DNA of 46,850 nt from Exilispira sp. (GTDB taxonomy: Bacteria > Spirochaetota > JAAYUW01). Location of the stretch: positions 1-46,850 of the forward strand of contig JAAYUW010000066.1 in assembly GCA_012517545.1 (NCBI GenBank), read 5' to 3'. Below the pieces are notes generated by a model that was given only the letters and a program-made list of their open reading frames with translations, was not told the DNA's origin and did no database searches. Shown here piece by piece: positions 6,236 to 19,647 of the stretch. The translations under genes were made by a program, and so were the position numbers. Positions within the stretch are counted from its first letter, which is position 1, and each line of letters opens with the position of its first letter.

Positions 6236-6340
6236 AGCTATTTAACTATTTAACTATTTAACTATTTAGCTATTTAGCTATTTAGCTATTTAACTATTTA
6301 ACTATTTAACTATTTAGCTATTTAACTATTTAGCTATTTA
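6236..6340. repeat. Octamer tandem repeat, (TTTARCTA) x 12 plus partial units
   Basis: Twelve consecutive 8-bp units run from 6241 to 6336, flanked by partial units. Only one position varies: unit A is TTTAACTA and unit B is TTTAGCTA. The order is AAABBBAAABAB, which suggests growth by duplication of a 24-bp block. The unit length is not a multiple of three and lies outside coding sequence, between the stop of the PLP-enzyme gene and the start of the xdhC-like gene, both read on the minus strand. Such arrays change copy number by slippage, so expression of the downstream maturation factor could vary; this effect is inferred. Confidence 0.95.
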
Positions 6341-14660: not shown

Positions 14661-15596
14661 TCAAATAAAAAAGCCATCATTCAAAAAATCAGCTGCAAGA
14701 TTATAGTCAAACATCGTATCTATATCAAAAATAGTTCCAATATCGCAAGTTTCAAGTTCAAAAAAACTGCCCGTTTTTAGAACATCTCTTAGTATACTAA
14801 TATTATCAAGCTGTAAAAATTTGCAAGCAAATTTAGAACTTAAAATTACCGGATGCCCCTTTTTGCGAATTGCTGAAACATTTTCGATATTTAAATATTC
14901 TTTTTCATTTTTTGGATGTAAATAATTTTTTTTATCTTTTGAATTTGAAAAATTTTTTTTTGCGCTTGAATATTGGTCTAAATGTTTATTTGAATATTTA
15001 TTATAAAATTTATTATAAATGTATTGTGCGAGTTTGTTGTAATTATTATGTTTATTTATATGCTCATTTTTTTCAAAATTTTGAAGGTTAAAAGCTGGAA
15101 CACAGAAATCAACTTTACTTAATAAAAGGCTATCATATAGGCTTTCAATAGTTTGATTTTGTACAAAAGGCATATCTGATAAAGTAAAAAAGATAGGTGG
15201 TATTTGAAAATCTTTTTTTGTATCTTTTTCAAGGTTGTTGAAAATAAACTCAAGTCCCGTTTTTAGGCTTGAAAACATACCATTTTGAGGATTTTTATTC
15301 TCTATATTATAGGTTTTAGAGCACAGGTAGTTATAATATGAGTAGTTATCATATTTTTCATTTATATTTTTTTTAAAAATTTCATTGATGTTTGCGAAGT
15401 ACTTTCCGCTGACAATAACAAAAGTTACATCAAAGCATAAAAAAGGTTTCATGTTCCAGAGAAGAAGTGGTACATTATTTAATAGTAGTTCTTGCTTGCA
15501 TTTGCCAATCCTCTCAGAATTACCTGCTGCTAAAATTATGCAATAAATTCTTTCTTTTCTTCTTCTTTCAATAATTCTGAGCTCTTCTTTTTCCAT
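14661..15596 (-). CDS. MocA-like molybdenum cofactor nucleotidyltransferase with insertion
   Basis: MobA/MocA-type nucleotidyltransferases attach CMP or GMP to molybdopterin before insertion into hydroxylases. The N-terminal signature is IILAAGNSERIGKCKQELLL. PPIFFTLSDMPFV supplies the metal-binding aspartate, KKGHPVILSSKF is the family's third block, and DIGTIFDIDTMFDYNLA closes the domain. The protein is 311 aa against about 190-200 for the family. The excess is mainly a 70-residue Asn/Lys/Tyr/His-rich insertion (bases about 14871-15086) between the aspartate block and the GHPV block, plus a Tyr/Asn-rich one near residue 80-100. AAAGAG lies before the start. It lies immediately upstream of the catalytic-subunit gene, so it probably serves that enzyme. 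Confidence 0.82.
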   Translation of the reverse strand: MEKEELRIIERRRKERIYCIILAAGNSERIGKCKQELLLNNVPLLLWNMKPFLCFDVTFVIVSGKYFANINEIFKKNINEKYDNYSYYNYLCSKTYNIENKNPQNGMFSSLKTGLEFIFNNLEKDTKKDFQIPPIFFTLSDMPFVQNQTIESLYDSLLLSKVDFCVPAFNLQNFEKNEHINKHNNYNKLAQYIYNKFYNKYSNKHLDQYSSAKKNFSNSKDKKNYLHPKNEKEYLNIENVSAIRKKGHPVILSSKFACKFLQLDNISILRDVLKTGSFFELETCDIGTIFDIDTMFDYNLAADFLNDGFFI

Positions 15597-15941: not shown

Positions 15942-17438
15942 CTATTTTTTTAGCTTCTCGTAATAATTCATTACTCTGTTGAAATCAGGTGGTAGAGACT
16001 CTGGCAAATTGATCTTTTTTTTTGCAGATTCTATATCTTTAAGTCCTGTTGCTGTTAAAAGTGCAACTATTTTCTTAAAAGGATCTAAACCATTTATAGC
16101 TTCTTTTTTATACCTTATTATTCCAGCTATGGTTGCAGCAGATGATGGTTCGGCAAATATCCCTGTCAAACTTGAAAGCAAAATTTGAGCATCGAGGATC
16201 TCATCATCCGAAACACTTATCATATCTCCACCACACTTTTTTAAAAAATCTATTGCTAAATATCCACATCTTGGTGAATTTACAGAGATGGAATCTGCTA
16301 ATGTTTTAGCTCTATAATCATCTCTAAAAATACCAGTTCTAAATGCACTTTCGATATAATTGCTATTGGAGGATTGAACACCTATAATTTTGGGAAATCT
16401 ATCTATAAAGCCACAATCTTTAAGGTCATTAAAGCCTTTTATTAAGCCACTTAATATAACTCCGTCTCCAACAGGGACAAATATATAATCTGGAGGCACA
16501 AAAGGGGTATATCCATTTTTAGATAAATCATTCTCCAGTCCTTTTCTTATTGCTCGAGGGAAAAGAAGCTCAAAAGCTGCAGATTTTTTTCCTTCTATGG
16601 TAAGTGGATTGTATCCTGTGTTCCTGCTTATAAAACCCAACTGCTGTGAAAACTGCATAGATAGATCAAATGCTTCATCATAAGATCCATCTATTAAAAA
16701 TAGATTTGCTCCATACTGCAAGATTTGAACAAGTTTGGCTATTGGTGCTTTTGCTGGAGCAAAAACAAAAAGATTCTGTTCCATATTTGCACAAACAGCA
16801 GAGATTGAAGAAGCTGCATTACCAGTTGAGGCAACTGATAGAGTATCTTCGTTAAATTTTTTAGCCAGGGAAGATACAAGGATAGATGCCCTATCCTTGT
16901 ATGACCCAGAAATATTGGTTCCTTCCCACTTCAAAAGAAGATCTTTTACTCCAAGGTGCTGACATAGTCTTTTTGAGAAAATCGCTGGAGTTTTGCCGAT
17001 AGGAAGGGAAGGAAAGAACTTGCTCTCAACCGGGAAAAAAGGTAAAACGGGAATAGAAATTGGTTTACTATTTACTTTTTTAGAATCGTTAAAATATTTA
17101 TCATTAATAGGCTTATCATTGATTAACTTATCATCTTTAGATTTATCAATTGTTAGGTCATCATTTATGAATTCATTTTCTAAAAAAAAATTTTCAAAGT
17201 CATCTAGATTATTTAAAATAAAATTTTTACAGGTTTTTATAAATTTTTCAGGCAATTTAACAAGCAAAGTCCCCTCAAGGGGGAGACCTTTTTTATTTTT
17301 TTTACTGCAATCATCACAAAGGTATCTTTTGCTGTCTATTGGGTACTCTTTCTTGCAGCTACTACATACATAGACAAAATCATCCTTTGGAATCTGTGCA
17401 AGACTTGCAAAAAAAATGTGCAAAATTTTCTTTTCCAT
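15942..17438 (-). CDS. Threonine-synthase-like PLP enzyme with N-terminal zinc ribbon and insertion
   Basis: A 498-residue fold-type-II PLP enzyme closest to threonine synthase, which turns O-phosphohomoserine into threonine. The N-terminus has a zinc-ribbon pair, VCSSCKKEYP and YLCDDC. The core has KWEGTNISGSYKDRA with the PLP lysine, SVASTGNAASSISA, and YIFVPVGDGVILSGLIKG. The C-terminus has the SSLTGIFAEPSSAATIAGI segment. Between zinc ribbon and core lies a low-complexity insertion (bases about 17061-17240) with a repeated DKLIN/DKPIN/DKYFN unit. AGGA precedes the ATG. Located with a molybdenum hydroxylase and a second PLP enzyme, it may have a catabolic role instead of threonine synthesis, and I leave the substrate open. 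Confidence 0.78.
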   Translation of the reverse strand: MEKKILHIFFASLAQIPKDDFVYVCSSCKKEYPIDSKRYLCDDCSKKNKKGLPLEGTLLVKLPEKFIKTCKNFILNNLDDFENFFLENEFINDDLTIDKSKDDKLINDKPINDKYFNDSKKVNSKPISIPVLPFFPVESKFFPSLPIGKTPAIFSKRLCQHLGVKDLLLKWEGTNISGSYKDRASILVSSLAKKFNEDTLSVASTGNAASSISAVCANMEQNLFVFAPAKAPIAKLVQILQYGANLFLIDGSYDEAFDLSMQFSQQLGFISRNTGYNPLTIEGKKSAAFELLFPRAIRKGLENDLSKNGYTPFVPPDYIFVPVGDGVILSGLIKGFNDLKDCGFIDRFPKIIGVQSSNSNYIESAFRTGIFRDDYRAKTLADSISVNSPRCGYLAIDFLKKCGGDMISVSDDEILDAQILLSSLTGIFAEPSSAATIAGIIRYKKEAINGLDPFKKIVALLTATGLKDIESAKKKINLPESLPPDFNRVMNYYEKLKK

Positions 17439-17505: not shown

Positions 17506-19647
17506 TTATTCGAGGTTAGTTTTAAGTTTTTCTTTAAAGATCGAGGATGTTAGTATAGAAAGAGGAAGATCAAAAATTAAAGGATCATCCTGATCAAATA
17601 TCCTATAAAAATCGGTTATTGGAGACAGCATATTGTAACTATTCTTAAATATATCATTTGTTTTAAGAGCTTTTTCAAAAAAATCCTTATGTTTATAAAG
17701 ATATTCTAAAAATAGAAGATAAATTTTATTTTCTCCTTGAAATTGCTCAATTATTTTAGAATTTTGATTCACAAATTGCTGGTTCTTAATAGTTTTTTTA
17801 GCATGATCACCATCAAAAGAAGCTTTATTAGAAAAATTTTGGTTTTTATCAATCTGAGAGACGATTTTATAAAAATTTGGTTTTAATTGTGGTTCAATAG
17901 TATTATTTTTACCGTTGAGATCCTCTTGAAAAGGAAAATTATGAAATTTTTTCTTACTGTCAAAGCCTTTATCTATATCCTGATGATCTATATTTTCAAT
18001 TTTGTTAATTTTTTTATAAAAAGTTAATAGGTACAAAAATGCATCTATAAAGAAATTTTCTTTCTTGCTTTTATATCTATCCGCAAAGGAATTATTTTTA
18101 TGATTTTCATTTTTATCCGTAAAATTTTCATATCTATCATAGAAAAGCTTGAATATTTCGATATTTTCCTTTGAAGTATCACAAAGGTTTATCTTTATCT
18201 CATCTTCTTTTTTTTTATCAGATTTGCTAATCGATGATTTATTTGTGATCGATGTATCATCAGGTGAAGTGCTGATAGATGATCCATTTATGGTCGCTGT
18301 GTTATCAGGTGATTTGATGATAGGTTCTCTATTTGTAGATAATGTTGCGCTTGATGAGTTTTTTAAGCTTGATGAGTTTTTTTCAGATGCTTCAACATTT
18401 GACTTTATAGCAAATCTGAACTCAAAAAAGTTATTATCCTCTGAATCATATAGGAAATAGAAGGTAGACTCCAGTGAATACAGAAATAATATCTTTGTTT
18501 TCTTTAATATATGAACATCAAGAGGGAAAAACAGATTTTTTTTATTAAAAATATCAATAATATCTTCTTTATTTAACAAAAAATCTTCAGGGCTTTTTTC
18601 TGGACCATCTAACATTACAGCTGATAAGTCGTCCGATTTGGTAATAGAACTTTTATTTAGTCTTTTACCACGAGTATATAAAAAAGGATCAATAAAAAAG
18701 TTCAGATGATTTGTTATAAAATAGTTCCATAAATTTGTATCAGGAAAAGTATCTTTTATCATCCATTTCAAAAAAAGATTATACCTTTTAGCGCTGCTTC
18801 CTTTCAAATCTTGAACAAGAAGATTTTTTAAAATTTTCATATCATTATTGTTGATTTTTAAGTTCAGATTTTTGTTTGAAAGCGCAATTATTCTCTTAAA
18901 AATATCATTTGAAAAGAGGATCATATAACTTATTAAAGGTTTTGTTGATAAAGTAAGATGCTTTGATGTTACGGTCTGGATGTTTTTGTATTTAGACACT
19001 TTAGCTGTAATTTCTAGATTATTTGCATTCTGAACTTTTGTATTGAGGTTACCATAGCTGTCTCCAATGGAAATTTTTTTTATTATAAAATGCAAAATTG
19101 AGTCATTTTCGCAGTAAAATTCATTTAATGCAGCGAGAAGCAAGAATAATATTTTTTTATTAACCCATCTATAATAAGGGAGTTTTGAAAAAATCTCAAT
19201 ATTTTCTTTATTTTGAGGATCAAAAAAATTAGGCTTACTACCGGTAATATCAAAAGGAGAAATAGTGGAAAAAAGATTTGATAAAAATGATATTATGAAT
19301 TTTCGAGAGCCAAAAGCAAAAAGGGAGGAAAAAAAAGCGGTAAATTCGACAACTTTAAAGCTGGATAGAATATCGTTATTTTTAAAGCTTTCATTTGATA
19401 TATAATTGGAGTTGATTTTTAAAAAGTCATAGTATGTACTGTTAGTTAAGTATTCATATGATTGATTGATTTTTGAATCAATAACATTGAAGTCAATACT
19501 ATCTAAGTTTTTTTGATTTTTGAACCAGCTGTTAGAGTTAAAAAGTAGCTTTTTTTGCAGGATCAGGGGAAAGATTATGGGATCTATATCAAAGCAAAAA
19601 TCATTTAAATATGAAATATTATTTAAGTATCTGTAAAGTATTTCCAT
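17506..19647 (-). CDS. DUF2400 (TIGR02757) family protein enlarged to 713 residues
   Basis: I recognise the DUF2400/TIGR02757 family, normally about 250-270 aa and of unknown function, from scattered core blocks. These are EFTAFFSSLFAFGSRKFIIS (residues about 101-120), a block near 168-188 reading LLLAALNEFYCENDSILHF, GSSAKRYNLFLKWMIKD (283-299), FFPLDVHILKKTKIL (373-387) and ITDFYRIFDQDDPLIFDLPL near the C-terminus. Between the last two blocks lie about 280 extra residues rich in Asn, Lys, Ser, Asp and Phe, including a 15-residue tandem repeat. Smaller insertions occur elsewhere. There are no stops despite 2.1 kb of AT-rich sequence, which argues that the frame is kept. No clear ribosome site precedes 19647, so the start is uncertain. 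It is the first gene of the minus-strand group. Confidence 0.72.
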   Translation of the reverse strand: MEILYRYLNNISYLNDFCFDIDPIIFPLILQKKLLFNSNSWFKNQKNLDSIDFNVIDSKINQSYEYLTNSTYYDFLKINSNYISNESFKNNDILSSFKVVEFTAFFSSLFAFGSRKFIISFLSNLFSTISPFDITGSKPNFFDPQNKENIEIFSKLPYYRWVNKKILFLLLAALNEFYCENDSILHFIIKKISIGDSYGNLNTKVQNANNLEITAKVSKYKNIQTVTSKHLTLSTKPLISYMILFSNDIFKRIIALSNKNLNLKINNNDMKILKNLLVQDLKGSSAKRYNLFLKWMIKDTFPDTNLWNYFITNHLNFFIDPFLYTRGKRLNKSSITKSDDLSAVMLDGPEKSPEDFLLNKEDIIDIFNKKNLFFPLDVHILKKTKILFLYSLESTFYFLYDSEDNNFFEFRFAIKSNVEASEKNSSSLKNSSSATLSTNREPIIKSPDNTATINGSSISTSPDDTSITNKSSISKSDKKKEDEIKINLCDTSKENIEIFKLFYDRYENFTDKNENHKNNSFADRYKSKKENFFIDAFLYLLTFYKKINKIENIDHQDIDKGFDSKKKFHNFPFQEDLNGKNNTIEPQLKPNFYKIVSQIDKNQNFSNKASFDGDHAKKTIKNQQFVNQNSKIIEQFQGENKIYLLFLEYLYKHKDFFEKALKTNDIFKNSYNMLSPITDFYRIFDQDDPLIFDLPLSILTSSIFKEKLKTNLE
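18233..18322. repeat. 45-bp tandem repeat inside the DUF2400 insertion
   Basis: Two adjacent 45-bp units (18233-18277 and 18278-18322) begin gatgat and share about three quarters of their bases, including tatcaggtga or catcaggtga near base 30. A third, weaker unit follows on the right. On the coding minus strand they encode a 15-residue unit of the form I-x-x-S-P-D-(N/D)-T-x-x-x-N-x-S-S. Being a multiple of three, expansion keeps the frame. This shows how at least part of the large insertion grew. Confidence 0.75.

Follow-up and report, generated by a model that had tools for sequence, protein, structure and literature searches.

A greatly lengthened DUF2400 protein of Exilispira, probably a remote HhH-GPD glycosylase with older and recent loop insertions

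The window is a stretch of 46,850 nt from an Exilispira sp. draft genome (contig JAAYUW010000066.1), and it encodes a 713-aa protein of the uncharacterised DUF2400 family (Table 1). We consider it likely that this protein is an HhH-GPD glycosylase, and that its length was built up from an older insertion and from recent, near-neutral loops of a kind that occurs genome-wide in this species. By sequence comparison, the gene is real and probably working, and its family most likely belongs to the HhH-GPD glycosylases as a remote branch.

Table 1. Features of the lengthened DUF2400 protein and their positions in the window
Feature	Residues	Position	Strand	Basis
DUF2400/TIGR02757 family open reading frame, 713 aa		17506..19647	-	profile matches, chance test
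Insert 1, DPIIFP block to VEFTAFFSSLFAFGSR helix	29-98	19354..19563	-	alignment; DPIIFP placed by eye
Core helices, pLDDT mostly 80-94	99-198	19054..19353	-	alignment, model
Insert 2, species-specific	199-238	18934..19053	-	G002 gap mapping, model
Core with SSAKRYNLFLKWMIK	239-308	18724..18933	-	alignments, model
Lys287, family-invariant, aligned with EndoIII catalytic Lys in the profile alignment	287	18787..18789	-	alignments
Insert 3, species-specific	309-365	18553..18723	-	G002 gap mapping, model
Asp377 of PLDVH, aligned with EndoIII catalytic Asp (VDTH)	377	18517..18519	-	profile alignment
Insert 4a, Ser/Asn-rich, species-specific, predicted disordered	408-477	18217..18426	-	G002 gap mapping, model
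45-bp tandem repeat, 2.2 copies, inside insert 4a	~442-475	18225..18323	-	repeat search
Stretch partly helical by prediction	478-560	17968..18216	-	alignment, model
Insert 4c, species-specific, mostly pLDDT < 50	561-632	17752..17967	-	G002 gap mapping, model
Final DPLIFD block	688-693	17569..17586	-	ORF, alignment

The open reading frame and its family

The protein is encoded by one open reading frame that starts with ATG and has no internal stop codon, and the five remaining frames of the same DNA contain 34-109 stops each. At a stop frequency of 0.079, the chance of 713 open codons was ~3e-26 in a first-order Markov simulation, and the longest open run in DNA simulated in this way with the composition of the ORF was 144 codons. 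The Pfam DUF2400 profile (PF09674) matched the protein at 70.7 bits, above the cut-off of 25, in a single stretch covering residues 100-343. The TIGR02757 profile, which the sequence-only reading had proposed as a check of the family, also matched, but only at 45.3 bits and below its curated cut-off of 139.2. The low score is probably due to the long distance to the last two blocks, which prevents the profile from joining them to the rest. These blocks, PLDVH (residues 375-379) and DPLIFD, lie outside the span of the Pfam match and align with the blocks of two relatives, the congener G002 and G003 from the same order, which upholds the claim that the blocks are kept in order. Judged from the profile matches and aligned blocks, the open frame is a DUF2400 family protein with all conserved blocks in order, including the invariant KR, the W, PLDxH and the final DP..D. 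It differs from the family by several insertions, by its length and by scoring under the TIGR02757 cut-off. In addition, the family Gly is lost at D.G.W, which reads DTNLW in the window protein, and Lys replaces the Arg of WMVR.

DUF2400 matches were found mostly in open frames of ~252-290 residues among 100 related genomes. In ~80 other records, 79 DUF2400 proteins were mostly 246-326 aa long, and the few shorter ones were artificially short from the start codon chosen. With a family length of ~250-310 aa, the window protein, earlier described as nearly three times the normal length, does have 713 aa and is ~2.5-fold longer. The interval between PLDVH and DPLIFD was 308 residues, close to the estimate of about 280, compared to ~40 in the canonical member L051 from a record named Leptospiraceae; from Asp377 to Asp693 there are 316 residues, and the same Asp pair is 42 residues apart in L051. 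The DUF2400 tail in a genome of the same phylum (G040, L024) was identical to that of L051, which points to Spirochaetota as the probable phylum of the window.

The nearest relatives that have a copy are also long, with 428 aa in G002 and 425 aa in G003. The gene order around the G002 copy is as in the window, namely a substrate-binding protein, DUF2400, threonine synthase, a MobA-like protein and a xanthine dehydrogenase-type subunit, and the identity between the two orthologues is only ~41%. In a second congener, G001, neither a DUF2400 copy nor a threonine synthase match was detected, and the gene is thus either dispensable or missing from this assembly, which is 89% complete. No partner gene recurred beside DUF2400 when its genomic surroundings were compared across 30 records. 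The window's genome is a fragmented draft of 197 contigs, in which an error of assembly or binning might have fused unrelated DNA into the frame, but the gene is internal to a 46.8-kb contig with the gene order of the congener, and the inserts, spread over several sites, keep the reading frame and lie between helices, so we regard such an artefact as extremely improbable.

Similarity of DUF2400 to HhH-GPD glycosylases

A model of a canonical DUF2400 protein had a mean pLDDT of 91.1, and its best 30 fold matches in the PDB (Foldseek) were all HhH-GPD glycosylases, with EndoIII-3, MutY, MUTYH, AGOG and OGG1 named among them. The matches were weak, with a best E of 4.5e-3 and TM of ~0.4-0.5, which suggests that the relation is remote. 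When a DUF2400 profile of 53 sequences was compared by hhalign with an EndoIII profile built from related genomes, the score was 72.8 with a probability of 96.7%, whereas one reversed and 12 column-shuffled controls reached scores of at most 18.7 and probabilities of at most 0.7%; the hhalign E-value applies to a single comparison and is not equal to a database E-value. Matches to Pfam HhH-GPD (PF00730) were found in 19 of the 53 members, all sub-threshold (best E 0.0064), with no member over the cut-off, and searching the PDB directly by sequence yielded no significant match. In the literature searched, DUF2400 had one passing mention and TIGR02757 none, and no activity was described for any DUF2400 member.

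The global profile alignment placed the invariant DUF2400 Lys (of KR) on the Lys of EndoIII GrKTAN, PLDTH on VDTH, and a four-Cys loop on the [4Fe-4S] loop of EndoIII. This Lys and this Asp have catalytic roles in EndoIII. The loop, C-X(5-9)-C-X2-C-X(4-6)-C, was present in 40 of 79 DUF2400 members and absent from the window, G002 and G003 copies. DUF2400 resembles EndoIII (Nth) in the aligned catalytic-type Lys and Asp, in its predicted all-helical fold and, in many canonical members, in the cysteine loop. It differs in a longer Lys-to-Asp spacing (33 residues in canonical members and 90 in the window protein), in having no recognisable LPGVG hairpin motif and, in the copies of this order, in lacking the four Cys. 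The 8-oxoguanine glycosylase AGOG was also a fold match to canonical DUF2400 (1xqo), with a weaker score (E 0.1) and a likeness from the fold only. The Lys-to-Asp spacing in AGOG (K140, D172) resembles that of canonical DUF2400. From the profile alignments and the predicted structure, the DUF2400 family looks like an unrecognised relative of the HhH-GPD glycosylases of the EndoIII/MutY type.

In the window's genome, a 94% complete draft, one gene scored over the Pfam HhH-GPD cut-off and was EndoIII-like (L237, G000:C120), and no second such gene, for example a MutY, was seen. A search for AGOG found no match in this genome, but as there was none in the control genomes either, this negative carries no weight.

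Two layers of insertion

A three-way alignment of the window, G002 and G003 proteins separated an older from a recent layer of insertions. Part of the older layer follows the DPIIFP (DPxxFP) block and is common to the genus: insert 1 has a counterpart of ~55 aa in G002 and none in G003 or canonical members. Also older is an excess of ~110 residues in the interval from PLDVH to the last block, which was found in the window, G002 and G003 proteins and is partly helical in the structure prediction. Residues 478-560 largely represent an older stretch common to G002 and partly to G003, with small species-specific additions. The recent layer is found only in the window's species and consists of inserts 2, 3, 4a and 4c together with some shorter stretches, and the internal gaps relative to G002 total 285 residues.

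In composition, the inserts are rich in K, N, S and D, and their hydrophilicity exceeds that of the core. AlphaFold gave a pLDDT below 50 for most of the species-specific inserts, including residues 196-231 in the region of insert 2 and 316-358 in insert 3, compared to 80-94 for the aligned core. When compared with the canonical model and the alignment, the insertion sites fell between helices, and both Lys287 and Asp377 were kept. Based on the model, the extra length would be mostly disordered loop insertions, and the normal enzyme core appears intact.

The low confidence past residue 308 is partly technical, because the protein was folded with alignment rows for the N-terminal part only and with none past that residue. 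The model was restricted in this way because MAFFT alignments of the window protein with canonical members alone put PLDTH on the look-alike NFFIDPFLY, and aligning separate fragments was no cure. NFFIDPFLY and NFFIDAFLY form an internal protein repeat in which 17 of 23 bases are alike.

The stretch that G002 and G003 also have between PLDVH and DPLIFD, together with weak helices predicted at residues 492-548 and 613-663, could suggest that the inserts are functional as an interaction or regulatory region, and that the helical stretch is a new domain in this order. We find this unlikely, since the species-specific stretches are low-complexity, of low confidence and not in G002, and since similar loops in many unrelated proteins make a gene-specific function less plausible. 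The sequence-only reading had proposed that selection keeps the long frame. The frame is indeed maintained, but selection is a better account of the core than of the inserts, as most of the latter are species-specific, predicted to be disordered, lacking in the congener orthologue and similar to others across the genome.

Loop insertions across the genome

Sequence from the window's genome (~441 kb) was compared with sequence from G002 (1.50 Mb), which gave 212 reciprocal best pairs in which only internal gaps were considered. Inserts of at least 15 residues numbered 47 (1,296 residues) in the window's species and 8 (184 residues) in G002, and a net gain of more than 30 aa was found in 21 pairs in the former and 2 in the latter (binomial P ~7e-5). 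DUF2400 was the most extreme case among the 212 pairs. In three further proteins, the lengths of the open frames were 738 aa in the window's species versus 688, 694 and 688 aa in G001, G002 and G003; 671 versus 618, 586 and 542 aa; and 563 versus 492, 483 and 567 aa. For the window's species, the first two represent a clear increase in length; the third exceeds both congeners but not G003. The insertions in DUF2400 are one case of loop growth across many proteins of the window's species.

Well-conserved proteins of this genome (76% identity) also carry such inserts, and this bears on whether the gene is decaying, that is, whether a glycosylase is losing its function and insertions pile up as the need for it is gone. 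The low identity to the congener orthologue, the large inserts, the loss of one conserved Gly and the apparent absence from G001 would agree with decay. However, every codon of the frame is open, the blocks and the residues of catalytic type have all been preserved, and with similar inserts in well-conserved proteins we give decay a still smaller chance than a function for the inserts.

Several other insertions and repeats were observed. The neighbouring threonine synthase-like gene (15942-17438, reverse strand) has a low-complexity insert at residues 70-105 relative to G002, which is a similar insertion on a smaller scale, and the MobA-like nucleotidyltransferase (14661-15596, reverse strand) has a 49-residue Asn/Lys/Tyr-rich insert (residues 189-237) that is not in G002. 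A 689-aa protein elsewhere (L132:13992-16061, forward strand) has a congener match of 317 aa, and internal insertion explains only part of the difference. An intergenic tandem array at 6236-6340 of the window is made of 16-bp units, AGCTATTTAACTATTT, in 6.6 copies.

Discussion

The gene would encode a probable base-excision-repair DNA glycosylase of the HhH-GPD superfamily, the second such enzyme beside the EndoIII of this genome. By analogy, the protein may flip out and remove a damaged base, with Asp377 as the activating residue and Lys287 as the nucleophile. Since it lacks the cysteines, it probably has no [4Fe-4S] cluster. Its length would have two sources: an older, partly helical insertion common to the genus and the order, and recent disordered loop insertions that are an instance of the loop growth seen across the genome. 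These loops are most likely tolerated and nearly neutral, and may arise partly by tandem duplication. The sequence-only reading was correct on the family and the frame, and it missed both the older lengthening common to the genus and order and the likeness to EndoIII-type enzymes.

Low-complexity insertions are carried by proteins of Plasmodium falciparum (PMC7534687). The two cases are alike in the AT-rich genome and in Asn-rich stretches inside otherwise ordinary proteins, and differ in that the host here is a bacterium and the inserts are of mixed N/K/S/D/E composition with no homopeptide runs. A bolder statement, that DUF2400 is an undescribed EndoIII-type branch and that the species is undergoing a bacterial, Plasmodium-like inflation of loops across the proteome, seems to us evenly balanced between right and wrong.

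DUF2400 was found in records named Bacteroidetes, Leptospiraceae, Myxococcus, Nitrospirae, planctomycetes and others. If the relation to the HhH-GPD glycosylases holds, a role in DNA repair can be tested for this widespread and uncharacterised bacterial family, and the residues that are candidates for catalysis can be named. The window's species and its congener also offer a pair of genomes for measuring how disordered insertions spread through bacterial enzymes.
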